A DNA stretch of 64,000 nt from Moesziomyces globuligerus (taxonomy: Eukaryota > Basidiomycota > Ustilaginomycetes > Ustilaginales > Ustilaginaceae). Under the pieces are notes generated by a model that was given only the letters and a program-made list of their open reading frames with translations, ran no database searches and was not told the origin of the DNA. Shown one piece after another: positions 26,347 through 47,382 of the stretch. How positions within the stretch are numbered: the stretch's first letter is position 1; each line of letters opens with the position of its first letter. Both the position numbers and the translations under genes were made by a program. Where the stretch lies: positions 124,001-188,000 of the forward strand of contig JARVLF010000023.1 in assembly GCA_030849465.1 (NCBI GenBank), read 5' to 3'.

Positions 26347-26566
26347 ATCGCGAAAAAAGGAGTCATGTGTGTAACATGAGCCAAGCCACTCGCAAGCCAC
26401 CACGAGTGGCTTCCTTACAAGCAACCCTCCAAGCCACCCATAGTGGCTTGATATTCCAAGCCACTAGAGTGTGCGTGGGTGGCTTGCGAGTGGCTTGGAG
26501 AGGAAGCCACCCGTAGTGGCTTACCTGGTGGCTTACCCCACGTTACACTTCGTCTTTTGAGATGCG
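26347..26566. mobile_element. Palindromic AAGCCACCC element 1 (MITE-like)
   Basis: The left edge is ATCGCGAAAAAAGG followed by GTGTAACATG (26369-26378). The right edge is CACGTTACAC (26539-26548) followed by a T-rich GATGCG end. The two 10-nt blocks are inverted copies with one mismatch, and the inverted similarity continues inward through AAGCCACC and GGTGGCTT units. The interior is a chain of such units in both orientations. It has no coding capacity. The structure resembles a small non-autonomous element with terminal inverted repeats; no clear target-site duplication was found. Confidence 0.55.
26433..26524 (+). repeat. 92-bp repeat copy A
   Basis: Part of element 1. It is nearly identical, in inverted orientation, to 28729-28818. 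Shared landmarks are AGTGGCTTGATATTCC, GCCACTAGAGTGTGC and GAGTGGCTTGGAG. Confidence 0.8.
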
Positions 26567-26636
26567 AAAATCACTCGGGGTGGCTACACGATGGCTTGGC
26601 GAACGTACGCCGCGAGCTTTTCCGCGATGAAGAGGG

Positions 26637-26772
26637 GCGGCTGCTCGCCATCAGCTACACAGCAGCCGCCCAGGGTGGCTTCTACAGGCATACTCTAAAA
26701 AGCAGCGGGGTGCTGATCGAGCAGCCACCCGGGGTGGCTGATGGGTGGCTGACGGCGAGCAGCCAGCCGAAT
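26637..26772. mobile_element. Palindromic CAGCCACCC element 2
   Basis: Bounded by GGCTGCTCGCCATCAGC on the left and GGCTGACGGCGAGCAGCC on the right, which are inverted copies with few mismatches. The interior holds CAGCCACCCGGGGTGGCTG, itself palindromic. It represents a subfamily with CAGCC instead of AAGCC units. Confidence 0.5.
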
Positions 26773-27399
26773 TTCAAAAAATAATTGAGGCCGCTCCCGA
26801 ACTTGGACCTGAGGCTCACAAATCATGAAATTGGTTCCATCCACGGATGCTCACCTCCACACAAACGTGTGTGCAGCAAGGATCCCTACACTGCTGCCCC
26901 ACAGCCCTCTCATCAATTTCAGAATTTGACGAGGGAGGCATCGGAGGTGTTGCTTTCAATTCCCGTGATCACAAGACCACTTGGATTGCCCAGGATGTCC
27001 CGTGCCTCATCAATGCATGTACCGCATATCAAATTTGCACAGCCAGACTCGAAATCGCTTATTCATATAAGTCGTATTCTGAACTGATGGGTGGCTGGTG
27101 GACCGCCGCCTCGCCGATTTTCAAGACGAGACTCTCTTTTGAGTTCACCCTCCCCCGGACAAAATACTAATTCCATTTCTCTTTCGACAGATATAAATGC
27201 TTGTAGCAATCCCACATCAATCTGAGCGCTGAGGGGCCGTTGAAAGCGGTTTGAGCCGATATTTGCAACTAACGAACATAAAAATCACGCTTCTTAAACA
27301 ATTCTCTGACCAATTTATGGTTGTTCATCATCTCCTGCGTTTCATTCATGGATGTCGTGCGAATGGATGGGAAAGCGGATGAATAGGATGGCTTCGCGT

Positions 27400-27545
27400 C
27401 GAAGGCATCCAGCTCAGCCTGAAGCCACCCGCTGAAGCAACCTGGGGTGGTTTCACGTCCAAGCCATCCCCTGAAGCCCTTTGATATCATCTGGATGGCT
27501 TCGGGAGACCTCAGGGTGGCCAAGCCGACCGGGTTGGCTTAGAGG
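27400..27545. repeat. Degenerate GCCACCC/GGGTGGC array
   Basis: Multiple diverged GAAGCCACCC, GGGTGGTTTC and GGTTGGCTT units in both orientations, ending with CAGCGAACGTG, a form of the right-edge motif of the other elements. Confidence 0.5.
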
Positions 27546-27840
27546 TGGCTCAGCGAACGTGCCCGGACTCAAGCGTCACCTCGCCTCCTCTTCAGAACAA
27601 CTGTATATCGTGAAGCAAGAAGCTGTGATGGTCTCGTGACCGCAGAAAAATAAGGAACCTACAGTTCACCTGCACATCATGCATCTCGACCGCATGCATG
27701 ATGAGCAGCAACCTCTCTGCAAAATTCATGCATGATGCTTGATGCATGATGCAGCTGGTCAAGAAAAGGATTCATGACCAGAAGTTTTAAAGGTCAGGTC
27801 GCTTGAAACCCCAAAGCAAAACAATCATATCCTGAAGAAC

Positions 27841-27925
27841 GGCCAGTTGGCGAAGAGCAGCCACCCATCAGCCAACCCGGGTGGCTGCGACATACCAGCC
27901 ACCCATACACGATGGCTGATCATGG
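27841..27925. repeat. CAGCCACCC palindromic array
   Basis: GCAGCCACCCATCAGCC followed by GGGTGGCTG, CAGCCACCC and GATGGCTGATC, all alternating in orientation. Confidence 0.5.
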
Positions 27926-28120
27926 ATGAATGCCAAAATTCGGAAGAATAAGAAATTGACGCGTCTCTTGATGAGTCGAGCCTGTGGCCCGCAGAGGTCA
28001 CCTACACATCCATACAGGCGTACTCGGGCCACGCGTGGTACCGCCGCCCCACAGCCCCTGCAATAACAGGTATGCAATTCAAAGCAATTTGATCATCACG
28101 ACGCAATTTGGGCCTTTTAC

Positions 28121-28295
28121 AGCGCTATTCAGGCCCATTCTGAACGGTTTTGAGTCGGGTTTTGCGAGGCATATCATGATTCTCAGCGATCCTCTAAACG
28201 ATGGATGCTTTGCATTGCAGGTATCGTGATTATTCATCATCTGCTGCGGATGGATGGAGTGCAGCTGGAGGGGTGCGGACGGATGGGGTGGCAAC
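28121..28295 (+). repeat. Diverged duplicate segment, copy 1
   Basis: Aligns by eye with 29716-29908. Shared landmarks in the same order are AGCGCTATT, GGCC, GGTTTTG, CTCAG-GATC, GCATT-CAGG, ATCGTGATTAT and CTGC-GATGGA. Both copies run into GGTGGC units. Confidence 0.5.
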
Positions 28296-28367
28296 GCAAT
28301 CAGGCAGCCAAAACACGCGAATTTTGCACAATTTAGACGTGCAGTGTCAAAATTGGCAGGGGAGGTG

Positions 28368-28570
28368 GCGGAGAGCAGGCACCCATCACCCGGCGAGAGG
28401 GGGTAGCTCCTCGTGATCAGCCACCCATCAGCCACCAGGGGGTGGGTGGCTAATATTTGGCAGCCATCCAGCAGCCACCCATCAGCCATCGTGTTTGGGT
28501 GGCTGATGGGTGGCTGGCGCGTCGCAGCCACCCCGAGTGGCTGGTGTGTGGCTGCTTGATTGCCACCTCG
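28368..28570. repeat. CAGCCACCCATCAGCCA array
   Basis: The densest array in the island. CAGCCACCCATCAGCCA occurs repeatedly, facing GGGTGGCTGATGGGTGGCT on the same strand, so the segment can fold into long hairpins. Confidence 0.6.
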
Positions 28571-28728
28571 CCACTTGTTCGGGTATGACTGCTCCACGCA
28601 CCACTCCATACAAGGACATAGAGCTCGAACATCCATATACACGTCAAATTCCAAAATTCGAGCTTCACGCGTGCTTGTAAAGTGAGGTAAGCCACCCATA
28701 TCCCGAAAAACGGCTTGTGACATTTTCG

Positions 28729-28818
28729 AAGCCACCACGGGTGGCTTACCCTCCAAGCCACTCGCAAGCCACTCATGCACACTCTAGTGGCTAGGAATAT
28801 CAAGCCACTACGGGTGGC
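28729..28818 (-). repeat. 92-bp repeat copy B, inverted
   Basis: Reverse complement of the repeat at 26433-26524 with only a handful of differences, 2.2 kb away. Confidence 0.8.
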
Positions 28819-28889
28819 AAAAATCCCAAAATACGCGTCGCTCCAAAGGCAGCCCACCACAGCTCCACAGCTCAAAATTGCAAAAATAC

Positions 28890-28965
28890 GCATCTCTCCG
28901 GAATCGAACCCGGGCCCTCCACATAATTTTGCCATGCCTGCAAGTGGGACACTCTGACTCTCAAA
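28890..28965 (-). pseudogene. tRNA-like fragment with a perfect B box
   Basis: The minus strand carries GGTTCGATTCC (28910-28900), the consensus tRNA T-loop/B-box, preceded by AGAGTGTCCCACTTGCA, which looks like a D-arm and anticodon arm. A TGC anticodon with a short intron can be drawn, but the T-stem has mismatches and the acceptor arms do not pair. It is more likely a decayed tRNA or tRNA-derived element than a working gene. Confidence 0.3.
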
Positions 28966-29070
28966 TCACTCCACACACCCCCGCATAACAATTCTAGACG
29001 CCAGAGCACGTATAAATTTTACACCCCTCAAATTGGTGAACTGCGGTCAAATTCCAAAATTTGACGCGTC

Positions 29071-29241
29071 TGTAACATGTTCCAAGCCACCCCTTAAGCC
29101 ACTCACCCTTAGTGGCTTATTTTGGAAGTCACCCCTGAGCCACCCGTGGTGGCTTAGGGGTGGCTAAGCTCACGTTACACACCTTTTTTCGCGATGTGAT
29201 TGCGGGTGGCTAAGCTCACGTTACACTCCGTTTTTCGCGAT
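29071..29241. mobile_element. Palindromic AAGCCACCC element 3 with duplicated right end
   Basis: Begins TGTAACATG and has CACGTTACAC twice (29171-29180 and 29217-29226), each followed by a T-rich CGCGAT end. The second end, with its GGGTGGCTAAGCT lead-in, is a tandem duplicate of the first. The interior alternates AAGCCAC and GTGGCTTA units. The right-edge sequence is the inverted counterpart of the left edge of element 1. Confidence 0.55.
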
Positions 29242-29715
29242 AAGATGTGTGGAGGAGTAAGATGAGCATCAAGGGCTGGAGCTTGGGCGAATCATGAACT
29301 CGGGCGGAGAGCCTCTCTGTCTTGCCATGGCACGGTCTCAACTACAGAGAGACGCATATTTCCTTTGTTTTGAGCTGGGGCTGGGGTCGGTGGATTGCCT
29401 ACTAACGAGCCATGGATAATGAGGCATCAGGCTCCATGCTTGGCTCATAACAGTTATCAAGATCGTGCTTTAAGAAACGGGGAGGTTGTAATGATCGGCT
29501 CCTCGCCACTTTCCAGAATATGTATCATAACACATGAAGTGGATATGAAATTCCCATTTTCGTAGAATGGGCGAGGACGGCACCAATTCTGAATAGCTCG
29601 GGCACAAAAACGAAACCAGTGCTTATGCTTGATGCTTCATGATCATTAATTTATGCATGAGTACTTGCATCAATTTTCAGAATTATGCATCATGAATTAC
29701 GAATACCTGAATTTC

Positions 29716-29908
29716 AGCGCTATTTCGGCCTACTAAGCGGTTGGACTCGGTTTTGTTTTGCAATTCTCGATTCATGTTACACGGGTAACGTTTCTCAGTG
29801 ATCATCTGAACATCGCATGCATCGCATTCCAGGGATCGTGATTATGATGCGCTGCAGATGGAAGGGATCATATGGATGGAACGCAAATGGATGGAATAGC
29901 TACGCTTT
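29716..29908 (+). repeat. Diverged duplicate segment, copy 2
   Basis: Counterpart of 28121-28295 and more diverged. It runs into a GGTGGCTTCG unit. Confidence 0.45.
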
Positions 29909-29965
29909 GGGGTGGCTTCGACGCGTAGCCAACCCCCCTCAGCCACCCGGCCCGGGTACGTTTCA

Positions 29966-30121
29966 CATCGGAAAAAGTCGGCGAGTACGTTTGCTAAGCC
30001 ACCCCTAAGCCGCCCCAGGTGGCTTGCCCCTGGACGTACCTCTGTGCCACCACCACGCGCAATTGGGTGGCTTGCGGGTGGCTTTGGGAACGTACCCCGC
30101 ATCTTTATGCTTCTTCCGATG
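29966..30121. mobile_element. Palindromic AAGCCACCC element 4
   Basis: Starts CATCGGAAAAAGTCGGCG-AGTACGTT and ends AACGTACC-...-CTTCTTCCGATG. The outermost 13 bases and the ACGTT core are inverted copies. The interior holds AAGCCACC and GGTGGCTTGC units. It lies only 175 bp from the end of the ALG3-GAA1 gene. Confidence 0.55.
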
Positions 30122-30297: not shown

Positions 30298-33200
30298 CTA
30301 AAAGGTTAGCAGCAGGCCGATCTGGGCCTGCAAGATGATCGGGAGGTAGGCCATGCAGAAGACGGGCACGGTGGCTGTGTTGAAGAGCCTGTAGTGCATC
30401 ATCAATGCTTCGACAGCTGCTCTGCCCAGTCGAGACGGGAAGACTTGTATCAGCGCCACCCATGTCACTGGGCTGAAGACGGCGATCGCGACGTATCGCG
30501 GCAGGAAGGAGAGAAGGATCCGAGCAGGTAGGGTGTGCGAAACGGATCTCCAAGAAGCGATCGCGAGAGCAGGATACGCGAGAAGGGCGAGCGTCGTGGC
30601 CAGGGCAAAGTTGAGCACACTCAGGATAGCGACGAGCATACCAGCCTGCAGATACGCAAAGGCGATGAGTAGCGAGCCGATTCGCCGCCTGCGCGGCGCG
30701 GAGCACCGCGAGCGCAAGTAGATCGTCTCGGCCGCCTGCAGCAGCATCGATCCTGCCAATGTGGCGAGCGCGCTTTGGATCTGTGGTGCAAGGTGGACAA
30801 TTGCAAAGTTCTCATGCGGTCCGTCAGTGTCAGTCCTCCCGGACCGTCTCGTGGTGAAGAAAAGGCTTACCTTGGGTCCCTCTGAGTGCGTCAGACTGTG
30901 CGGCAGCGATTCGCAGTAGTGGAGAAGCCCGATGCCCACTGCGATGGTCGAGCCAATGCAAGCCAGAGCGGCAGCACAAGGTCGCATCGACTCGACGAGC
31001 GACTGCGACAGCAAGTCTGTCTCAGCCATCATTCCTTCGCCTGCCTTGTTCGCAAGACTGGCCTCCACCAGCTGCTCGCGATACCACGTCAGAGTGGGCG
31101 AGTCCGGCTGAACGTCGCCTGCATCCTGCTGGACGTCATCGGCTCCACGTTGCAACTGGGCGAGAATCTCCTCGCGCAAGTTTTTGGAGCGGGTCTCCTC
31201 TGCTCGCCACGATGCGAAGCCGCTGATGGTGAGGGAGATGGAGAGGAAGAGCGGGACGAGGATGGCGATGCCGATGGGCACGAAGCGGCGCGGGTTGAGG
31301 AGGAGGTAGAAGAACTGCGAGTGGTGCAGTCGCTCGAGCAGATTCGACATGGACCGCACAAAGGATTCGACGAGTCGACCCATTTGGAAGAATCCATAAG
31401 GCCCGGTAGCAGGCACTGCGTAGAGGGTTATCGCATCGACGTGATGCCTCTGGAAGAATCCATGCGGCCCGCTCGCTTGGCCGGCGAGACCGTGTCCCAC
31501 CTGTCGCAGAGCTGCACGCACGCCCTGCTCGTAGCTCTGCAGCTCGTACTCGATATCCGAGCGGAGGGAGATGCCGAATCGTCGGGCCAGTCCTCGAGCC
31601 GGTTCGGCGAGGAGCGCAGCGGTCGTCTTCTCCTCGAGGTCGACGGGAATGCCTCCCGCGACGCTGTCGGCGATCCGGACGATGGTATTGACCACGTCCA
31701 TGTTGGGCAGCTGACCATCGAAGCCCTCGTACTGCACCACGAGCGACGAGAAGGAGTCCGAAGGATAGTCGAGCGAGATGGCGTTCCACACCTGCGAGCC
31801 GCCCGAGACGACGGGCTCGACCTCGAGCCCCGTCACTCTGCTCCCAAAGTAGGCCGAGGACCAGGCGTTGATGCCTTCGAGATGGCCGTCGCTGATGACG
31901 AAGAGGAGATCCTTGCTGAGGTGCGCCTGCGTCGTGAGGTATCGCGCCAGGGCGAGTAGCGAGGCGATGCCCCTAACGTTGACTCGGCCTTCAGGCTCGA
32001 TGGACGCTTGCGTAGCGTTTTCCGACGGCGCAAAGGGATCGTTGTTGCCTGTCCACCGACTCCGCCAGCTGGCAGTGAGGACGATGGCTTCGCGGCCATC
32101 GATACGTGGCGTGGCAGATCGGGCGTAGACGTTGGTGCCCGAGACTGACGCGCTCTGCCCTGGCGCAGGATGATACTCGTAGTTCTGCTGGTGGGCGTCG
32201 AGGCCGTAGGACTGAAGCTCGGACCAGACGAACTCGGCGCGGACGGCGCTGGAAGCTGCGCCCAAGCGCGCGACCTTTTCCGAGAGCATGTCGGCGTAAG
32301 TGACGTCAAAGTAGTCCCAGTAGACACGTGCCTGGCCTGGCTGAAGGGCATTCTCGTCGACGTAGGTTCCTTTGGATACGGGCGAGCGCGGATGCGGGAT
32401 GACAAGCATGAGTGCGAGAGCGAGCACGATGAGGAGCGATCGAAGCACGAGGACGAATCGGCCGAGGAGCGACAGCACCCTACGTCTGGCCTGGATGCGG
32501 CGTCGAAAGGCGAGGCGCAGCTTTTCCTCCTTTGCCTCTCGCGCGATCCGAGCTTCTGCGAAGCGGTCAACCTCGTCATCATCGCTAATCTCCTGCGATG
32601 CTGCCGCTGCAACATCCGCATGCGATTCACCTTTTTGGTCTGTAGCCGTGCGGTCGAGGTCGGCGGCGAGCAGCAGATCCACCTCGACTTCTTCGGCGTC
32701 TTGGCGGACGGGAGAGTCATCCGCGAAAGCCGGCAGAGTAAAGCAACCGAGCACGAGAACAGCGTGACACGCGAGGAGCACTGAAGACGAAGTCTCGGTC
32801 GAAGGGAACACGTTCCAGCACCACTCGATCGCCAGCGGCAGCGCGAGCTTGACGACGACGGGGAGCCTGGCGAACCAGAGGACCAGGGGGAGCTGATGAA
32901 AGTACCACGAGTAGAACTGGTAGTGCAGGCTGCGCGCGCAGAGGATGCCGACGAGGTTCGAGGCGAATGCGCTGCAGAGGATGTTGGTCTGCGCCGGTCG
33001 GGAGAGCGTTGGCTTGCGCTGGGACAGGTTTTGGACGAGCCAGGAGGGGCCGTGCTGCAAAATGGGCGTCCAGCGGCAGAGGCCAAAGATCCCCAGCAGG
33101 ACGAGGTGAGCGGCGAGCAGGGCCCTGGCGAAGGCGGAAGACAAGAAGGTCTCTTCTGGGAGGAAGCGCCAGTTGACGGTCCAGACGTAGAGGAAAGCTC

Positions 33201-33930
33201 TGGAGAAGTCGAACGCGCGACCGAGGTATGCGGCTGGGTCGTGCTGGGTGAAGGGTAGCGAGACGAGCACCTGGACCGCCGCGACGATCGAGAGGTAGGA
33301 GAGTGTGCCGAGCAAGCCGGTGTAGGCGAAGCAGGCGGCGGCGATACCGGGCAAGAAGAGGAGGACGTTCATCTTGATGCCGAGTCCGAGGCTGAAGAGT
33401 AGCGCGGAGGAGGTCCACCTGGCGTGGGTGAGGGCGAGAAGCGCAGCATAGACGCAGAGCATGGCGATGGGATCGTTGAACATGCGGAGTACAAAGACCG
33501 ACGCGATGCGCTTGGAGGCGATCAGCGGCAGAAGCGCGATGGGGGGCAGACCGGCTCGACGGTAGAGGAGCGCGACGACGAGCACGTTGAGCGCCAGCAG
33601 ACCGGCAAAGACGTGCTGAGCAGGGAGGATGTTGGCGCCACCGTCGGTGAGCCAGTGGAAGAAGGCATAGGTGTAGACGTGGACGGCGGGATAGACGCAG
33701 GGTCCGCTGCCACCGGGAGGGTCGAGGTTGGTGTAGATTCGTTCGCCCTGCAGGAAGAGGTGGGCCTGGTCGACGTACGTCTGGAAGTCGATCTCGGTGA
33801 AGCTGACGCGTCGGATCACCGCTTCCGAGACCAGGGCAGAGGCGATCGCCAGCGCTGGCAGCGCCAGCCGATAGCCCTCGTCGTGCAGGCAGACGCGGCG
33901 AAGCCACGCCAGCGCGGACGAGCGATCCAT
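30298..33930 (-). CDS. ALG3-GAA1 fusion: Dol-P-Man mannosyltransferase joined to GPI transamidase subunit
   Basis: One open frame of 1210 codons encodes two ER proteins. Residues 1-400 are Alg3, the alpha-1,3-mannosyltransferase that acts on Man5GlcNAc2-PP-dolichol: GSGPCVYPAVHVY, SKRIASVFVLRMFND, LGIKMNVLLFLPG, YLGRAFDFSRAFLYVWTVNW and LHYQFYSWYFHQLPLVLW. Residues about 401-485 are a charged linker. Residues about 486-1210 are Gaa1 of the GPI transamidase, starting with its first membrane helix, then YVDENALQPGQ, GTNVYARSATPRIDGREA, NVRGIASLLALARYL and SKDLLFVISDGHLEG, then several C-terminal helices. No Met codon occurs between residues 187 and 508, so Gaa1 has no ATG of its own. A 60-nt in-frame intron (30870-30811) is likely near the end; its removal gives 1190 residues. 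Confidence 0.93.
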   Translation of the reverse strand: MDRSSALAWLRRVCLHDEGYRLALPALAIASALVSEAVIRRVSFTEIDFQTYVDQAHLFLQGERIYTNLDPPGGSGPCVYPAVHVYTYAFFHWLTDGGANILPAQHVFAGLLALNVLVVALLYRRAGLPPIALLPLIASKRIASVFVLRMFNDPIAMLCVYAALLALTHARWTSSALLFSLGLGIKMNVLLFLPGIAAACFAYTGLLGTLSYLSIVAAVQVLVSLPFTQHDPAAYLGRAFDFSRAFLYVWTVNWRFLPEETFLSSAFARALLAAHLVLLGIFGLCRWTPILQHGPSWLVQNLSQRKPTLSRPAQTNILCSAFASNLVGILCARSLHYQFYSWYFHQLPLVLWFARLPVVVKLALPLAIEWCWNVFPSTETSSSVLLACHAVLVLGCFTLPAFADDSPVRQDAEEVEVDLLLAADLDRTATDQKGESHADVAAAASQEISDDDEVDRFAEARIAREAKEEKLRLAFRRRIQARRRVLSLLGRFVLVLRSLLIVLALALMLVIPHPRSPVSKGTYVDENALQPGQARVYWDYFDVTYADMLSEKVARLGAASSAVRAEFVWSELQSYGLDAHQQNYEYHPAPGQSASVSGTNVYARSATPRIDGREAIVLTASWRSRWTGNNDPFAPSENATQASIEPEGRVNVRGIASLLALARYLTTQAHLSKDLLFVISDGHLEGINAWSSAYFGSRVTGLEVEPVVSGGSQVWNAISLDYPSDSFSSLVVQYEGFDGQLPNMDVVNTIVRIADSVAGGIPVDLEEKTTAALLAEPARGLARRFGISLRSDIEYELQSYEQGVRAALRQVGHGLAGQASGPHGFFQRHHVDAITLYAVPATGPYGFFQMGRLVESFVRSMSNLLERLHHSQFFYLLLNPRRFVPIGIAILVPLFLSISLTISGFASWRAEETRSKNLREEILAQLQRGADDVQQDAGDVQPDSPTLTWYREQLVEASLANKAGEGMMAETDLLSQSLVESMRPCAAALACIGSTIAVGIGLLHYCESLPHSLTHSEGPKVSLFFTTRRSGRTDTDGPHENFAIVHLAPQIQSALATLAGSMLLQAAETIYLRSRCSAPRRRRIGSLLIAFAYLQAGMLVAILSVLNFALATTLALLAYPALAIASWRSVSHTLPARILLSFLPRYVAIAVFSPVTWVALIQVFPSRLGRAAVEALMMHYRLFNTATVPVFCMAYLPIILQAQIGLLLTF

Positions 33931-34320: not shown

Positions 34321-35682
34321 TCAGACCTGCCTTTGTTTGAGGAACTGCTCGTCGCCGGCACGTATGCGGTAGAGGAGCGCCTCGCCGCTTCCGTGGCCTG
34401 CGCCGGCCCTTCTCTCGTACTCGAGCGCAAACAGTGCATCGCGCAGGGTGACCTTGAGCCGTGCTTGGCGCTCCTCCTCATCCTTGGCCGCCTGACGCGC
34501 CGTCACATCGCCCCAGGCGCCCGCCGCAGACGCTGCATTGGAGCCAGCACCGGCCGAGCCACCGGCCGAGCCACCGTCCGCGCCACCCGCGCCGCTCCAG
34601 TTGGAGACCGCGGGTTGGGGCGCGAATTTGGGCTTGGGTAGCCGGCTTGGCGTCTTGTCGTCGTCGGCTGCAGCTTCGGCCTTGGCCTTCTTACCGCCCA
34701 GGGGGCTGCTGAAGCTGGTCGGAAACGATGAACCGCCCGAGAGCCACGAGTACTTTGCCGAACCGCCGCCGAGGTTGCGCATGGCCGTGCTGTCGGCGAG
34801 CCGCTTGCGCACGTCTTCGGACATGTTTCTCGCCGCCACACCGGGTCCCATCTTCTTGGGCCGCTTCCTGCCGTCGGCACGAGGTGTTCCTGTACCATCG
34901 TCGATGTCCATGTCGGCGCCATCGCCGCCGAGGCCTGCGGCTGCGGCGGACGACTCTTGGTCGCGCGCGAGGCGTTCGCGCCGCCTGCGCGCCTCGTCGC
35001 CGCGCTCTGCCTTTTCGAGCGCGGCGAGTTGCTTGAGCGGATCGCTGAGGATCGACTCGTGGTACATGGGCTGGGAGGTCGAGGCGTAGAGCGGAGGCGG
35101 ATGCTGGTGCGACGACCAGCTTCGGTGGCGCGAGGCGGCGATCATGGCCTCGAGCACGTTTTTCAGCCGCGTCCGTGCGGCGAGCGAGAGGTAGTTGAGC
35201 ACCGCCGCATCGACGCTGAGTCCGTGCTGCTGGGCGAGCGTATGCACCTTGTACGCGAGCGGATATACCTGCAGGAAGAGCTCATCGTCGTCCGCCTGCG
35301 CCGCGCCTCGCTGCTGCTGCTGCTGCTGCTGCTGCGCGTGCTGCGACTGCTGCATGAGCTCGCGCCTTTGGATCGCCTCTTCCTCCGCTTGCAGATCGAC
35401 TCCCGAGGCTCCCATCACGTCGACCAGGCTGTCGAAGTTGTCCTTCTGCTCCGGTGCCGCTGCGGCGGGCTTGAGACCGTTGGCGGATGCATTTGCCGAC
35501 GTCGACGCGATGGGTGTCGAGGGGGACGCGGCCGAGGCGTCGGGGTGGTCGGCTTTGAATCGCTTGGCTAGCGGCACGGAAGAGTTGGAGCGCTCTCTGG
35601 CGCCTTGCGATGCTGTATTTGGCGCATCGTTGGTGGGTGTGGGAGGCGCATTCGGACTGCTCACGGCTGGCGAGGATGCCAT
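34321..35682 (-). CDS. TAF4: TFIID subunit TAF4
   Basis: A 453-residue protein whose C-terminal two thirds match the TAF4 family. The histone-fold region has LSVDAAVLNYLSLAARTRLKN and LEAMIAASRHR, a charged block with KQLAALEKAERGDEARRRRERL follows, and the extreme C-terminus has the conserved VTLRDALFALEYER. Residues 1-130 are Ser/Pro/Ala-rich and carry a Gln run encoded by consecutive CAG triplets. TAF4 pairs with TAF12 in TFIID. The frame is open to 35934 with an ATG there, but the ATG at 35682 (MASSPAVSS) starts the Ser/Ala-rich tail common in such proteins and is preferred. It is intronless. Confidence 0.9.
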   Translation of the reverse strand: MASSPAVSSPNAPPTPTNDAPNTASQGARERSNSSVPLAKRFKADHPDASAASPSTPIASTSANASANGLKPAAAAPEQKDNFDSLVDVMGASGVDLQAEEEAIQRRELMQQSQHAQQQQQQQQRGAAQADDDELFLQVYPLAYKVHTLAQQHGLSVDAAVLNYLSLAARTRLKNVLEAMIAASRHRSWSSHQHPPPLYASTSQPMYHESILSDPLKQLAALEKAERGDEARRRRERLARDQESSAAAAGLGGDGADMDIDDGTGTPRADGRKRPKKMGPGVAARNMSEDVRKRLADSTAMRNLGGGSAKYSWLSGGSSFPTSFSSPLGGKKAKAEAAADDDKTPSRLPKPKFAPQPAVSNWSGAGGADGGSAGGSAGAGSNAASAAGAWGDVTARQAAKDEEERQARLKVTLRDALFALEYERRAGAGHGSGEALLYRIRAGDEQFLKQRQV

Positions 35683-36218
35683 GTTTGCCAGTGAGCCGGG
35701 TTCGGCGGGGCTGTCGCGTAGGAGTGAGATGCGGATGCGGTGCGAGCACTCGTTGCGGACAGCAGTTTCGCGGTCGTGGGCGCCGGTCGACAGAGGATGG
35801 TGATGATGGGTGCAGATGGCAGTCGTAGAAGGGACGGGGCAGTGCGAGGTGATGCGAGGTGGAGCCAGTCGAGTCGTTGGCCCTCGACGCTCAGTGCGAA
35901 ATTCGGATTGCGGGAAAGCGCTTCTTTGATGCATTTCACTCGTCGCGGCTTTCAGAGACGCGTTGGATTTTCCACGTTTTCAAGGTGTGAGATCGTCTGC
36001 TCACACCACGAGCAGCTTGCTCAGCATTCACTTTCACATTGGCGGTCGCAGCCCTTCGACCCGCCCATACCGTATCGCCTTTGCACCGATGCGAATGCTA
36101 AAGCCTTTCGAGTTACTGTACACTGTTGTCATCATGTGTTGTCATGGCATCTTGTCGTTCGACTCGCCTGCAGTGCATATGCATTCGCAAGTCGGGAAGC
36201 GTGCGGGGATCGACAGTA
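35683..36218. promoter_or_regulatory. TAF4 promoter and GOT1 3' region
   Basis: 536 bp between two minus-strand genes. It contains one ACGCGT site (35958-35963). No gene is visible. Confidence 0.45.
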
Positions 36219-40199: not shown

Positions 40200-41048
40200 G
40201 GTTGCGAGAACGGGGTGGTGGTTACGGCGAGTGAGCGCGGACGTCTTGGGGTGGCATGAGAGACGAGGAGCAAGGTCAACGCCTCGAGGAGAGCCGACGG
40301 CGACGACGAGGACGAGGAGGGTCGAGGCGGAAAGGAAAGTTGTAGATCTGGACGAAGACGCCGAGGAGGCGAGAGGTGTGCACAAATGGACGAGATAGAG
40401 TGGCTTGACTCTGCGAGCTGAGCGGCAAATCGGCCCAACCCAAAAGGCACGTTGGCCAAAGTCGGCGTCGCTCTTTGGCGTCGCTCTTTGGCGTCGCTCT
40501 TTGGCGTCGCTCTTTGGCGTCGCTCTTTGGCGTCGCTCTTCGGCCTCGCCGCTCGGCATCACACGGCCGCCACACCTCCATCCAACCCGATCCGCCCCTA
40601 GCGCTCGCCATCCGATCCGATCCGATTCGACTCGCCCCAGCCACGACGCCATCCACGACGCAGCGGCGCTCATGCCGTTTGAGCCCAAAATCCCACGGTT
40701 TCCTAATTGGGCGTGGCTGCATGATTGGGCCAGAACAGCCGATCAATTTGCGATCACGCACACGCCGTGGGATCGCCCGATCTGACGTGATGCTCGGGCG
40801 AGGCGAGTCGCGAATCGAGTCGAGTCGAGTCGAAACGAGTCGCTGCTTCTGCAATTTGGAAGGATTCCGAGGTCGCATCCACTCTACCTTCTCTTCCCCC
40901 ATCGCTCGGCCCACACTTCATCAACTTAGAAGACGCGCGCCTGCCACCACCCTCATCAGCTTGGATTCCACCCACACCCGGCGGCCTCTGGTGTCTGCAT
41001 TCCCTTCCACCATTCCTCGTCCCGCCTCGGATCCGCTCCTAGACAGGC
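40200..41048. promoter_or_regulatory. Divergent promoter, LIM-binding gene and ARS2
   Basis: 849 bp between the two start codons. It holds a six-copy 13-nt tandem repeat (40464-40541), a GAGTC/TCGAG repeat near 40800-40840 and C/T-rich sequence before ARS2. No gene is supported. Confidence 0.6.
40464..40541 (+). repeat. 13-nt tandem repeat GGCGTCGCTCTTT, six copies
   Basis: Five perfect copies and a final copy differing at its last base (C for T), in the divergent promoter of the LIM-binding gene and ARS2. Confidence 0.95.
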
Positions 41049-41314
41049 ATGGACTACCGGTCCTCCTCCTACCGTCACTATGACCGCTCCGCCCCTGGGG
41101 CGGGGTCCGACCCTTACGCTCCTCCCACCGACGACTACAAGCATCCCGTAGACGACAACACCTACGACCGCTCCAGGAAGCGCGGTCGCTCCCCTTCCCC
41201 TTCCTACTACCGCGACGAACGACGCACGAGCGCCTACAACGACTACCCCACCAACGACCCATGGGACCGTCCACGCGACTACCGCGACCCCTCTCCCTAC
41301 GCATCTCGCTCGGC

Positions 41315-41351
<37 letters not shown>

Positions 41352-43577
41352 GGCGCCTACGACCACTACCGCTCCGCCGACCCCTACGACGACCGCCCAG
41401 ATCGCTCCCGCGCCGCAGAGTGGGATCGTTACTACCGCGACAGGGAGAGCAGAGATCACGACTACCGCCCTCAGTACGACGACCGCGAGCGCTACGAGGC
41501 TCGCTCTCGATACGACGAGCCCAACTCCGCCTCGGATCGCGACGACCGTCCGCGCATTCGCGACCGCGAGCGCCCCTACCCTCCCTACGACGCCCACTAC
41601 CGCAGAGACGACCACGCTGCCCCCTCCGATCCCGCATCCAACGCTCCCTTCAACGCACCCGATCCCATGCAGTCCGACTCCCTCCTCCCCTTCCGTCAGT
41701 ACGCACAGATGATCAAGGCTGCGCATCCCTCGGCGCGCGACAGATCCATCGATCAGCCCTCCACCCAGGAGATCTACGACGGCTACCAGGCGTACAAGGC
41801 CGCCTTCAACAAGAAGGCCATCGCCGTCTTCTTTGAGCATCGCAATGACGAGGCCTGGTTCAAGGAAAAGTACTCGCCCGCCGAGCCCTGGCTGAGCGCA
41901 CGCATCCAGCGCAAGCGAGCCGCACGCGCGGGCAAGAAGCAGGCCTGGCTCGACGAGCTCCGCGCTGGCAAGCTCGACAAGCTCAACTACGACATCGTCG
42001 GCACCGACGATGACACCTCCGCCGCTTCGCGTCACGCCGCCGAGTCCTTCGACGGCGACCAACACCACCACGATCACCACCGCGGCCGCTCCGAGCCCGC
42101 CGACGTCACGCTGCTCTCGCGCTACGGCGAGCCCGAGCTGCTGCACGCCGAGCAGGCGGTGATTCCGGCGTGCAACCACCAGATCCTCGTCAAGACCTAT
42201 CCTGCCGATCTGCCGCGCGAAAAGCTCGAGCAGCTCCTCCAGACCAAGCCGGGCTTCCGCTACCTGGCGCTTGGCGAGCCGCACGTCGGCAAGCGCTGGC
42301 ACCGCGTCGGCTGGGCCATGTACGAGCCGCACATCGACATGGACGACACGCTCAACGCGCTCCAGGGCGCCGAGCTCGACGGCTTCACGCTCAACCTCGC
42401 GCCATGCTCCAAGCCCACCTCGAGCAAGCTGCGCACGGTGCCCGAGTATGCCAACTCGTTCCACCGCCTCATCACCGACGTTCGCCACTGCAAGCAGCTC
42501 GTCGAGCGCTTCGAGGCCGAAGACCGCCAGCTCCTCTTCCGCGACGAGGCCGAGGCGGGCGGCGAGGCGGCGGCGTGGCTCGAGACGCGTGCGTCCGAAG
42601 CCATCCTGCAGCGACTCAAGCAGCTCGAAGCTGGCCTAGGCGAGGAGGAGCTGGAGCGCGGCTACGATGCCGACGAGGAGGCGGGCAGGCGCGAGGAGCG
42701 CAGGCGGTGGATCAAGAAGCAGCTCGATCTGCATCTCGATCTGCTGCGCACCGTGTACCACTGCGACTACTACATCTCGCTCGTGTGCGAGTTCGAGGAG
42801 GAGCTGCTGCGTCGCAGTCCGCGGCACGGGCGCAAGCAGCCGCCCGCGGGCGCGCTGGTCGAGGAGCCACGCGAGTCGACCAACGACGAATCGTGGGCGC
42901 GCAGCGTCGATCAGAAGACGGCGTTGCTGCTGGCGGACGAGCGCACCGATCTCACCGAGGCGGGCGGTCGGAGCGTGGATGGCGAGCTCATGACGGCGGC
43001 GCTGCCGCACGTCAAGGAGGAGGACAAGGAGAAGCATCGATGCACCGTCGAGCTCAACGGCGCGCAGTGCGGCAAGCTCTTCAAGGCGGCCGTCTTTGTG
43101 CAGAAGCACATCCTCAACAAGCACCGCGGCTTCATCGAGGCGCAGGCGCAGACGACGCTCGAGCACACGCGCTTCTTCAACAACTACGTCCGCGATCCGT
43201 GCCGCGCCACGACGCAGCTCGGCCTCAACGCCAAGAGCGAGAGGGAGGCAGGCGGCGTGCTGGCGCAGCGGCTCGAGGCGGGCGGCGCCAATGGCGCCGG
43301 CATGTTCAACAGCGGTGGCAGGATGGGTATGATCCGCTTTGGCGGTACCAGTGCTGTGGACTCGCCCAGGAGAGGTGGCGGTGGAGGCGCGACGACGGGC
43401 CCGCCGCTGGGGATGCGTCTCGGTGGCGTGGTCCAGACGCCAGACGGTACGCCCATCAAGCCCGACCCGCTCCCGCCGGCGCCCAAGCCGCTCGACCCGC
43501 GCGCCGCACGCGCCGCGCCCAAGTCCTACCAGGACCTCGACGGCGCCGCCGAAGGAGACGTCGACCTCGCCTACTAA
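41049..43577 (+). CDS. ARS2: Ars2/SERRATE homologue (Pir2-like)
   Basis: A nuclear RNA-processing factor that binds the cap-binding complex and directs capped transcripts to export, processing or decay. The 842-residue intronless protein starts with an Arg/Asp/Tyr-rich region containing RS/RD dipeptides and a poly-Ala run. The conserved N-terminal block follows (LLPFRQYAQMIKAAHPS, YDGYQAYKAAFNKKAIAVFFEHRNDEAWFKEKY). The central domain contains HVGKRWHRVGW, an RRM-like fold. The C-terminal half carries the diagnostic C2H2 zinc finger near residue 665 (CTVELNGAQCGKLF ... KHILNKH) and a Gly-rich tail. Fission-yeast Pir2 is the counterpart. It is convergent with the gene for CBC80, its physical partner. 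Confidence 0.94.
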
Positions 43578-43802: not shown

Positions 43803-46739
43803 TTATTCGGAGAGCATGTCGATGGCGCGGAGGAGGAGGAGTTTGGGTTGGTAGTCGTCTGGGAGGGTGGGGAAGACGAGGGAGAGGAGGGTGTGTTTGT
43901 TGTCGCGGAGCTGTTTGTTGTAGCCACGGACAAAGGCGATGTACCAGCCTTTGATCCACCACTCTGACCACCTGTCGTGGTCTGCGTCGAGCAGCTTGAC
44001 AAAGCCCTGGACGACGGTGAGGAGCACCTTGCGTTGTTCGGCGGTGATGGCCTCGAGGCTGGCGCGCGCGTCGGTGGCCGTGGGAGCCTTCTTTTCCTCC
44101 TCGGGTCGGATGGGCAGCGTGGCACTGGTAGGGAACAGGGGCAACACCTCGGCCTCCGTCTCGAGCTGTTCGGTAGCTTCTTCCACCAGTCCTGCCGCCG
44201 CAGCCGCTTCCTTTCGTTCCTGCTCCTCGGCCTCCTGTCGTTCGCTCTGCTCCAACCGACGTCGAAGCTGGTCCACACGTCCGTTGACCTTGTCCAACGT
44301 AAGCTTCAACAACGTCCACGTGTTGAAACCTTGCCATCGACCCACATCACCCTCCACCTCGCTCCGAATGCTCGCCGGCTCATCCCGAGGAGGAGAAAAG
44401 AGGAACTCGACCACATCGCCAGGTTCGACGATCCGATACTGCAGCAGCTTATCCACCACAATGTGCACCCACTGCGGCGAACGAACCCAAAACCGAACCG
44501 CCGCCGCCAACATGGCGCTGCGCATCCTCGCGCTCCTCGAGAGCGTACGCAGCAGCGCGTGGTAGCGCTCCACAATGTTGAGCAGATGCGAAAACGAACG
44601 CGAACCCACCTGCAGCACGCACTGCACCACCACATCCCTCACCACCACCTCGGCCTCCTCCACCCGCACCACCTTACCCGCCACCGCCTCCTCGTCGCCG
44701 GGCAGGTCGGTGGCGCCTTGGACGATGCTCGCCTTGAAGCTCTCAAAGTCGGCGAGGATGACGTCGGCGGAAGCTTTGGCACGGATCGAGGCGAGCAGCC
44801 TCGCCGCCTGCGCATGGTACGGATGCGTCTCGGCCGCATAGGTAAACGTAGCACCCGGCTCCTCGGCCGGCAGAGCCAACGTCTGGATCTCGCCAGGAAG
44901 CGTCTGCTTGATCCGATCAAAGTACGCCAACCGCACCTCGAGCTCGACGATGCGACGCATAAACACCACCTTGGCCTCCACCGCCGGCAGCGCCGCATCC
45001 GACGTCCACTCGTGCCACGCCCAGCCAAAGTTGAAGTTGCTCAGATGCACGCCGAACCAGTCTGCGAACCTCGCCACCACCTCCACGTCCATCTTGGGCT
45101 CGGCGAGCGCGTTGTAGAACGTGCGGATCGTCCGACCCAACGACGGCGCCACGGTTCCGGGCGTGAGGCTGACGATCTCGCGCAGCAGCGAGGTGTAGTA
45201 GAGCGGATTGCGCGGCGGCGCGGGCAGCACAAACGCCGTGCCCAGGATGGTCTCGACGAGCAGATCGTCGAGCGACCATCCGCGCTCCTCGTGGCTCGCC
45301 TCGTCGTGTTCGCCAAACAGGCCCGCGTCCGGCGAGACCTTGCCGGCAAACGTACCGCGACGCAGCCAGTGCGGGAGGTCGAGCAGCAGCCGCGCCGCCT
45401 CCTTGCGATTCACCTCGTACAGGTCGATCATGTCGGCGACGACGCCGCGCAGCACCACGCTCGCCGGCGTCGCCACGGCGGGCACGCCAGCACCGAACCA
45501 ACGCGGCTCGAGCGCGACGCGCTCTGCTCCGACCGCCGCCTTCTTCTCCTCGAGCTCGCCCTTGCCCGTGTCGAGCTTGCGGCGCTTGACCTGGTGCTGG
45601 CCGAGCTGGGCGTAGGCGACGTCGAGGCTGGGCTGCTCGGCCTCCTCCTCGGGCGGGACGAGCACGTCGGGGAGCGCGACGCTGCGCTCGCTCTCGGGCA
45701 CCGTGGTCGCGGCGGGCGAGATGGCGGCGGGCAGCAGATCGGCGGGCGCGGGGAGGAAGGCGGGGCGGCGGTAGTCGCGGGCGCGCAGCGCCTCGAGCGC
45801 GCGGACGGCGTGCGGGAAGCCTTCGAGCGCGATGGCGTCGACTTCGTGCACGGGCTGGGTGAGCTGCACCTCGACCTTGCGCGCGGCATCGTACGCGACG
45901 ACGCTGTGGACGAGCTGGTCGAGCTCGGCGCGCGCGGCGTCGCCGTCTGCGAGCAGGTCGTCGCCGGCGCGGCAGAGCGTGTGGATGATGCACATGGCGG
46001 CGCGGTCGGCGCGCGAGGCGGCGACGGCGGGCTCGTCGAGCACGGCGGCAAACGAGGCGAGCAGCGCACGCAGCGAGGCGGCGGCGACGATCTGCAGCGG
46101 CACGAGCGCGGCAAAGAGGTGGAGGCTCAGCCGCGTGTTGCGCCAGAGCCGCGCGTCGAGGTACGAGCGGAACGCCTTGATGAGGTCGTGCACGATGAGC
46201 ATGCCGAGCGACTTGGGCGCGGGCTCGTCGTCGTGCTTGGCCTCCGGTTCCGACACCGGTTGGGGCTGCGCTGCGGGCTGCGCTGCGGGCTGCGCGTCTG
46301 CGTGGTGCGCGGGCGGGGAGGGCGGGGACTGGAGGCAGAGGAAGCCGATGAGCGCAGCGATGAGCGGGATCTTGTGTGGCTGTTCGGTGACCATGACGCG
46401 AAAGGCGGCGGTGATGGGTTCTGCGCCGTCTGCGGCCTTGTCGTGGATCCAGCGCGCCATCTTGAGCAGGTCCGAGGGCGGGTGGAAGTCGTCGTCCTCG
46501 CCGAGCTTGAAGAGGTGGGAGCGGATGTAGCGGATGCGATTCTCGTGGCGCTGTTCGGCCGACTGTTGCTGGTGCTGTTGATAGTGGTTGTTGTGGTTGT
46601 GGTAACCACCACGATGAGCGCCTCGACCGCCGCCACCGCCGCCACCGCCGCCGCCACCACGGCGGGGCGAGTTTGCCCAGCCTGCTGCGGCGTTGGTGTG
46701 GGGCGGCTGCGGGTAGGCAGGAGTATCCCAGCCGTCCAT
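43803..46739 (-). CDS. CBC1: Nuclear cap-binding complex large subunit (CBP80/NCBP1)
   Basis: The MIF4G-type scaffold that, with CBP20, binds the cap of nascent Pol II transcripts. The 978-residue intronless protein has a Gly-rich N-terminus (eleven Gly from a GGC/GGT run). The first MIF4G repeat follows (ENRIRYIRSHLFKLGED, then HKIPLIAALIGFLCLQSP and LFAALVPLQIVAAASL), with later helical repeats including NFNFGWAWHEW and GSRSFSHLLNIVERYHALL. The acidic/Gln-rich insertion and C-terminal KGWYIAFVRGYNKQL segment fit the family. The ATG at 46739 begins MDGWDTP and is the last ATG before the Gly-rich part; upstream open frame translates a divergent promoter. It shares that 207 bp promoter with SPT4. 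Confidence 0.93.
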   Translation of the reverse strand: MDGWDTPAYPQPPHTNAAAGWANSPRRGGGGGGGGGGGRGAHRGGYHNHNNHYQQHQQQSAEQRHENRIRYIRSHLFKLGEDDDFHPPSDLLKMARWIHDKAADGAEPITAAFRVMVTEQPHKIPLIAALIGFLCLQSPPSPPAHHADAQPAAQPAAQPQPVSEPEAKHDDEPAPKSLGMLIVHDLIKAFRSYLDARLWRNTRLSLHLFAALVPLQIVAAASLRALLASFAAVLDEPAVAASRADRAAMCIIHTLCRAGDDLLADGDAARAELDQLVHSVVAYDAARKVEVQLTQPVHEVDAIALEGFPHAVRALEALRARDYRRPAFLPAPADLLPAAISPAATTVPESERSVALPDVLVPPEEEAEQPSLDVAYAQLGQHQVKRRKLDTGKGELEEKKAAVGAERVALEPRWFGAGVPAVATPASVVLRGVVADMIDLYEVNRKEAARLLLDLPHWLRRGTFAGKVSPDAGLFGEHDEASHEERGWSLDDLLVETILGTAFVLPAPPRNPLYYTSLLREIVSLTPGTVAPSLGRTIRTFYNALAEPKMDVEVVARFADWFGVHLSNFNFGWAWHEWTSDAALPAVEAKVVFMRRIVELEVRLAYFDRIKQTLPGEIQTLALPAEEPGATFTYAAETHPYHAQAARLLASIRAKASADVILADFESFKASIVQGATDLPGDEEAVAGKVVRVEEAEVVVRDVVVQCVLQVGSRSFSHLLNIVERYHALLRTLSRSARMRSAMLAAAVRFWVRSPQWVHIVVDKLLQYRIVEPGDVVEFLFSPPRDEPASIRSEVEGDVGRWQGFNTWTLLKLTLDKVNGRVDQLRRRLEQSERQEAEEQERKEAAAAAGLVEEATEQLETEAEVLPLFPTSATLPIRPEEEKKAPTATDARASLEAITAEQRKVLLTVVQGFVKLLDADHDRWSEWWIKGWYIAFVRGYNKQLRDNKHTLLSLVFPTLPDDYQPKLLLLRAIDMLSE

Positions 46740-46946
46740 GGTGTTGCGAGAGTGTGTGGTGGAGGCGAGGCAAGAAGAGAAGAGGGTTTCGGTTTGTCTT
46801 GACGTGGATTTTCCATGCGATCCTCTCGCGAAAAAGGCGCGGAAGTCGGAAGTGGAACTGGTCGGGCGGCGCTCGCAGCATTCGTCTTTGCTGCCTCGCC
46901 AACTCGATCTACTCTCCTCCATCATCACCGGCGCCACAACCCAGCC
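46740..46946. promoter_or_regulatory. Compact divergent promoter, CBC1 and SPT4
   Basis: Only 207 bp separate the two start codons, so the genes must share regulatory DNA. Confidence 0.7.
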
Positions 46947-47382
46947 ATGGCGACACGCAAGGAAAAGCTGCGCGCGTGTCTGCGCTGCCAGTTCGTCCAG
47001 TCGCCCCGCGACTTTCACCTCAAAGGCTGCCCCAACTGCGAACCCGTCCTCGAGGTAAGTTGGCCCGCCGCGCACATGGCCTCGGACATGCACAGCTTCT
47101 CACTGCGCTCACACCGTCTCTTTACCAACACGCAGATGCAGGGAAGCCAGGACAGGGTGGCCGAGTGCACCACCTCCAACTTTGACGGCATGATCTCCAT
47201 GCTCCGCCCGGACGAGAGCTGGGTCGCAAAGTGGCAGCGCATCGGTAAGTTGATCGCCCCATCCACATTCCATATCACATGCTAACGTCTTGTCGCTGGG
47301 TTGGGTGCTGCTAGAGAAACGTCTACCGGGGCTGTATGCCGTCAAGGTGGTGGGACGACTGCCGGAGAATCTCGAATCCTAG
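46947..47382 (+). CDS. SPT4: Transcription elongation factor Spt4
   Basis: The small zinc-binding partner of Spt5 in DSIF. Three exons give 94 residues: 46947-47054, 47136-47244 and 47315-47382, with introns of 81 and 70 nt. The zinc ligands are C11, C14, C28 and C31 (CLRC and CPNC). The spliced sequence continues DRVAECTTSNFDGMISMLRPDESWVAKWQRI and ends PGLYAVKVVGRLPENLES, the family ending. The second acceptor could also be AG at 47141, but that would lose two residues (MQ) that fit the family. No single long frame covers this gene, so it is easily missed. Confidence 0.94.

Follow-up and report, generated by a model that had tools for sequence, protein, structure and literature searches.

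The stretch of DNA analysed here, called the window below, covers 64,000 nucleotides of contig JARVLF010000023.1 (positions 124,001 to 188,000) from the smut fungus Moesziomyces globuligerus. A gene on its minus strand carries, in one open reading frame, a complete Alg3 of the N-glycan pathway followed by a complete Gaa1, a subunit of the glycosylphosphatidylinositol (GPI) transamidase. This gene quite probably yields one uncleaved protein of the endoplasmic reticulum (ER) that does both jobs, in which a cytosolic linker connects a working Alg3 with a working Gaa1. Two modification pathways of the ER that are separate in textbook organisms would be joined in this way in smuts and related yeast-like fungi, across a fungal class that includes the model smut lineage. 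The features of the gene are as follows, with residues numbered on the unspliced frame.

30298..33930, minus strand: ALG3-GAA1 fusion gene, from ATG at 33930 to TAG at 30298-30300; 1210 codons when read through, about 1180 after splicing
32731..33930, minus strand: Alg3 moiety, residues 1-400, with PF05208 at residues 26-382 (33855 to 32785)
32509..32730, minus strand: linker, residues 401-474, an acidic disordered part and then a charged helix, presumed cytosolic
32668..32685, minus strand: conserved motif E-[VI]-[DEN]-x-L-[LV], residues 416-421, present in 22 of 23 linkers
32401..32592, minus strand: long predicted helix from the linker into the first transmembrane helix (TM1) of Gaa1, residues 441-504 of the orthologue P0002 and about 447-510 here (AlphaFold2 model of P0002, mapped by alignment)
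30301..32508, minus strand: Gaa1 moiety, residues 475-1210, with PF04114 at residues 597-1201 (32142 to 30328)
32350..32364, minus strand: Y523, D525 and N527, equivalent in position to human GPAA1 Y49, S51 and N53 (structure-search alignment)
31321..31326, minus strand: H869-H870, equivalent in position to human GPAA1 H354 and Q355 (structure-search alignment)
30781..30870, minus strand: probable in-frame intron of 90 nucleotides (GTAAGC...CACAG), codons 1021-1050 (donor scan and protein alignment)

A complete Alg3 and a complete Gaa1 in one gene

The original prediction, made from the letters of the window, placed the two genes in one frame at 30298..33930 and took both to be complete. The coordinates are correct, the minus strand being our addition, and no stop codon lies between the ATG and the TAG; by chance, a stop-free run of 1210 codons at the base composition of this gene has a probability of about 1e-13. 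The further claim that the frame is uninterrupted stands for the 1210 codons of DNA but probably not for the messenger, from which a 90-nucleotide intron hidden in the frame would be removed. This stretch (30870 to 30781) starts with GTAAGC after AAG and ends with CACAG; its length is divisible by three and it contains no stop. It is read as an intron because most other fused proteins have almost nothing at this place: the site is spanned by 19 of the 22 other aligned fused proteins, 16 of them with 0-2 residues and three (P0003, P0018 and P0020) with an insert of 29-42 residues. The first three residues and the last residue of the P0003 insert are identical to those encoded by the 90-nucleotide stretch. 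Of the remaining three proteins, P0016 and P0017 stop within 9-16 residues of the site and P0019 ends before it. The predicted mature product has 1180 residues and a mass of 129.6 kDa. The intron sits in the Gaa1 half and leaves the junction untouched. In the linker itself, a scan for donor, branch site and acceptor gave no candidate intron, and a search restricted to strong donors placed three in the gene, all of them outside the linker. A strong intron in the linker was rejected on both scans, which is not a strict exclusion, as the first of them also missed the probable 90-nucleotide intron.

The Alg3 half matches PF05208 above the cut-off with 435.4 bits, over positions 2-358 of the 358 of the profile. 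When the sequences of solved structures are searched, its match is yeast ALG3 (9s6r, E 5e-59, residues 20-394), the GT58 Dol-P-Man:Man5GlcNAc2-PP-Dol alpha-1,3-mannosyltransferase. In an AlphaFold2 model of P0002, the closest orthologue (mean predicted local distance difference test score, pLDDT, 89.7), the yeast ALG3 fold extends over residues 9-401 with 31-33% identity. E46 and D48, the acidic residues of the first lumenal loop (TEID), are found in all 23 fused rows, and we take them to have a role in catalysis. Yeast Alg3 is a separate protein, whereas the C-terminus of Alg3 in the smut fusion continues into Gaa1.

The Gaa1 half matches PF04114 above the cut-off with 264.1 bits, over positions 1-495 of 497. 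Its closest known system is human GPAA1 or yeast Gaa1 in the GPI transamidase (PDB 7w72, 8imx, 8imy and 9ub7), and human GPAA1 7w72 is matched with E 8e-29 over residues 482-909. The N-terminal transmembrane helix, M28-like lumenal domain and C-terminal transmembrane bundle of the transamidase subunit are all present, the human GPAA1 fold covering residues 475-1159 of the P0002 model. Human GPAA1 aligns from its residue 8, near its own start, whereas the fusion has about 400 residues of Alg3 and the linker ahead of this point. Residues Y49, S51, N53, H354 and Q355 of human GPAA1 contact GPI, according to the parts of the paper available (PMC10491789). At the corresponding places, Y523 and N527 are kept in 23 of 23 fused rows and H869 in 22, the last row having a gap. 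The alignment used for the folds held 19 of the 23 fused rows and 49 others; P0011, P0016, P0017 and P0019 were excluded because their models are extended, cut or merged.

The original prediction had also proposed a search for a separate ALG3 or GAA1. A profile search of the whole genome (18.54 Mb, 24 contigs) matched ALG3 once and Gaa1 once, each time in the fusion frame; a separate copy of either gene was accordingly rejected for what a search in six frames, exon by exon, can detect, a heavily split second copy being able to escape it. As no separate copy was found, both functions must come from the fused gene. The same genome also encodes the other transamidase subunits, PF01650, PF04113, PF06728 and PF10510 all being matched above the cut-off: GPI8 and PIG-S by one match each, GPI16 by two pieces of one frame, and PIG-U by three pieces of one gene, with a further weak match at another place. 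Since GPI8, GPI16, PIG-S and PIG-U are encoded, Gaa1 is still needed. Judged from their sequences, both halves look functional and needed.

Distribution and origin of the fusion

How far the fusion extends had been left as a question for a protein search, and the answer is that it runs through the Ustilaginomycetes that could be examined. The whole-protein search gave 28 homologues, of which the best 22 (P0002-P0023) have both domains, in the same order as the window protein, and the other six have Gaa1 without ALG3. Names are given for 13 of the 22, and those looked up belong to three orders of the class: Ustilaginales, Urocystidales and Violaceomycetales. The 13 are Moesziomyces aphidis, three Sporisorium, two Ustilago, Melanopsichium, Pseudozyma hubeiensis, Kalmanozyma, Testicularia, Pseudozyma flocculosa, Violaceomyces palustris and Thecaphora frezii. 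Ustilago maydis is not among the names in the homologue listings, which shorten names and show clusters.

In Tilletia, Malassezia, Parajaminaea and Ceraceosorus, Alg3 and Gaa1 are separate proteins. Among the best 120 of 1085 Alg3-sized matches of the Alg3 half, separate Alg3 proteins were found in Tilletia, Malassezia, Meira, Parajaminaea, Microstroma and Ceraceosorus, the best identity was 52%, and no named row came from Ustilaginomycetes. The best 120 of 156 matches of the Gaa1 half comprised 21 fused proteins and 99 without ALG3, the latter including Tilletia, Malassezia, Parajaminaea, Jaminaea, Sympodiomycopsis and Ceraceosorus; none of those named among the 99 was from Ustilaginomycetes. 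By taxonomy look-up, Tilletia and Ceraceosorus belong to Exobasidiomycetes and Malassezia to Malasseziomycetes.

Trees were built by a quick method from 13 of the 23 fused rows, with 18 of the 120 listed Alg3 rows or 21 unfused Gaa1 rows (P0024, P0025 and P0029 from the whole-protein search, the rest from the Gaa1-half search). The Gaa1 tree, of 34 rows, unites the 13 fused ones in a single clade with a Shimodaira-Hasegawa-like approximate likelihood ratio test (SH-aLRT) value of 99, and this clade stands beside three Malassezia and one further row with a value of 94. The clade that holds the fused rows in the Alg3 tree, of 31 rows, has a value of 93. Both trees fit a single fusion event in the ancestor of Ustilaginomycetes. 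The likeliest route is that an upstream ALG3 lost its stop codon and ran on into a GAA1 that lay downstream in the same orientation, entering it through its acidic 5' part. An acidic tail is C-terminal in the separate Alg3 of Meira and lies ahead of TM1 in the separate Gaa1 of Parajaminaea and Sympodiomycopsis, which fits a linker built from both old tails.

Other proteins in these searches carry Gaa1 beside unrelated domains. Models of Malassezia cuniculi, M. yamatoensis and M. psittaci (P0027, P0173 and P0178) have methyltransferase domains together with Gaa1; the junction is seen in P0027 only, and its methyltransferase domain is presumably COQ3-like. In P0155 (Malassezia sp. CBS 17886), WD40 repeats are joined to Gaa1. 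Such joins would reflect either the merging of gene models or additional Gaa1 fusions.

The linker and the fate of the product

The linker lies between the last membrane helix of Alg3 and a basic stretch ahead of TM1, in agreement with the original prediction of a charged linker that joins a C-terminal membrane helix to an N-terminal one. As the C-terminus of Alg3 and the N-terminus of Gaa1 would both be cytosolic, no change in membrane topology is required. In the P0002 model, the ALG3 and GPAA1 folds are bridged by a disordered stretch and the long helix that enters TM1. Seventy-four codons stay free of stops by chance with p of about 0.16, so that the open linker is little evidence of translation. 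Such evidence comes instead from what appears to be constraint on its protein sequence. In the alignment of the 23 fused proteins, columns E416, V417, L420 and L421 are nearly invariant. The motif they define, E-[VI]-[DEN]-x-L-[LV], is found in shuffled linkers at a mean of 0.06 of 23 and at most 2, figures that serve as a guide only, since the motif was picked post hoc from an alignment of related rows and the shuffle thus overstates its weight. It occurs just 23 times in the 27,206 residues of the 23 fused proteins and is absent from all 12 separate Alg3 and from 12 of the 15 separate Gaa1 proteins checked. Presumably it resembles the acidic-dileucine consensus. The three exceptions, the separate Gaa1 proteins P0026, P0162 and P0163 of Tilletia, have E-[VI]-E-x-L-L at about residue 575, in an apparent loop past the second membrane helix.

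If translated as one chain, the gene would give a membrane protein of the ER, about 1180 residues long, with the mannosyltransferase of Alg3 and the transamidase subunit Gaa1. Each assembled transamidase would then carry one Alg3, and both activities would be tied to one promoter and one stoichiometry. Several points weigh against a single protein that does both jobs and is shared by the whole class. The homologues were compared as proteins only, and many of them are gene models. The Alg3 clade of fused rows also takes in the Alg3-only row P0030, although this row is cut off within the Alg3 domain and speaks neither for nor against fusion, and the intended outgroup of the Alg3 tree is not on one side of a branch. 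The Ser and Gln of human GPAA1 are not retained among the GPI contacts, S51 being replaced by D525 and Q355 by H870; since the separate Gaa1 of Tilletia and Parajaminaea likewise have D and H at these places, the change is a lineage mark rather than a loss of Gaa1 membership. The Violaceomyces linker lacks the motif, which was itself chosen after the fact, and a basic cluster just ahead of TM1 is a possible protease site. The predicted template-modelling score of the P0002 model is 0.66 and the pLDDT of much of the linker falls below 50, so that the model does not fix how the two halves lie relative to each other. The reach of the genome search, given above, is a further such point.

Within the reading as one uncleaved protein, the fusion has an even chance of being neutral, that is, a frozen read-through without coupling of N-glycan assembly to GPI anchoring. 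As a sub-case, this takes nothing from the probability of the uncleaved protein as a whole. Alg3 and the GPI transamidase share no substrate, the length of the linker varies widely, and a single origin with no reversal seen fits drift and a lost separate promoter; conservation of the motif in 22 of 23 linkers is more than a plain spacer requires. Neutrality and functional coupling are about equally likely, the motif being the main hint for function, and coupling of Alg3 to the transamidase, control of their ratio or channelling may each possibly result. The original prediction had leaned on dolichol phosphate mannose (Dol-P-Man) as a need common to both pathways. Alg3 uses Dol-P-Man and Gaa1 with the GPI transamidase does not; the argument is therefore weak and indirect and does not carry coupling, and Dol-P-Man was rejected as the reason for the fusion.

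A stronger form of coupling is more doubtful. Throughout Ustilaginomycetes, the GPI transamidase may have become one with an obligate, built-in Alg3, in which the linker would be a hub, its motif would bind a cytosolic partner, its charged helix would be a stalk, and N-glycan assembly would be coupled to GPI anchoring. If so, cells could not alter N-glycan assembly or GPI anchoring independently.

It is rather improbable that the single chain is later cut in the cytosolic linker to give separate Alg3 and Gaa1, as in other fungi. Cleavage would be eased by a partly disordered linker (pLDDT below 50 at residues 412-414 and 416-440 of P0002), by its variable length of 60-106 residues across fused rows, and by the basic cluster ahead of TM1. 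However, the stretch ahead of TM1 is predicted as one helix, and a cytosolic linker is out of reach for lumenal or Golgi proteases. Still less probable are two products from the locus, with a separate Gaa1 arising from alternative transcripts or internal initiation and only partial use of the long frame. Alternative promoters and starts occur in fungi, and Met is found inside the linker in four of the 23 fused rows. Against this, the window protein has no Met codon between 187 and 508, as originally predicted, and so none for a separate in-frame Gaa1; none lies between the end of Alg3 and YVDENALQP in 13 of 23 rows, and the linker motif is apparently kept at the protein level. An artefact, with neighbouring genes merged by models or by a sequencing error that deletes a stop, can practically be dismissed: merges seem to happen, as in P0019 (TAF4 with the fusion gene), P0155 and the three Malassezia models with methyltransferase domains, but the junction is one open frame in the raw sequence that needs neither intron nor gene model, and 22 proteins from several sources (ncbi, ena, lgn) show the same join.

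Naming, related fusions and neighbouring genes

No report of an ALG3-GAA1 fusion was found in the titles, abstract beginnings and some passages of open-licence PubMed Central. The domain pair is already visible in the precomputed Pfam annotation of public proteins, but no discussion of it was found. The public names of the fused relatives, as printed in shortened form, refer to Alg3 or read hypothetical or uncharacterized, and none of those printed mentions Gaa1; the name Alg3 thus hides the GAA1 half. Deletion of an annotated 'ALG3' in these fungi would remove the only known GAA1 as well, and its phenotypes could be misread. An alg3 deletion in U. maydis was not borne out by PMC6881057, whose sole mention of alg3 cites Magnaporthe mutants. 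The title of a paper cited in PMC12244721 and PMC9003368 describes GAA1 as essential for cell-wall integrity in Colletotrichum graminicola.

Alg13 and Alg14 together form one enzyme. They are fused in excavates and some amoebozoa, as stated in the available part of PMC4973528, whose Table 1 has Alg3 present in U. maydis and flags Alg13/Alg14 fusions only in its footnote. Like ALG3-GAA1, that fusion involves the N-glycan pathway, but Alg3 and Gaa1, unlike the Alg13/Alg14 pair, belong to different pathways. The ALG3-GAA1 fusion makes a mutual influence of Alg3 and the GPI transamidase directly testable.

Elsewhere in the window, a TAF4 gene (34324-35979, minus strand) lies just upstream of ALG3-GAA1. 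The Ustilago loliicola model P0019 merges the two, which suggests the same gene order there. An ARS2/SERRATE-like gene (41043-43574, plus strand) adjoins a MIF4G-like gene (43806-47099, minus strand), apparently for the large subunit of the cap-binding complex. ARS2/SERRATE and this subunit work together in other organisms, and the two neighbours are possibly a functional gene pair. Degenerate copies of GGTGGCTTGCGGGTGGC occur on both strands at 26385-30082, with 10 matches in the window at up to three mismatches against 0.44 expected. All copies fall within about 24.4-30.2 kb, a stretch with only one open frame of at least 200 codons.

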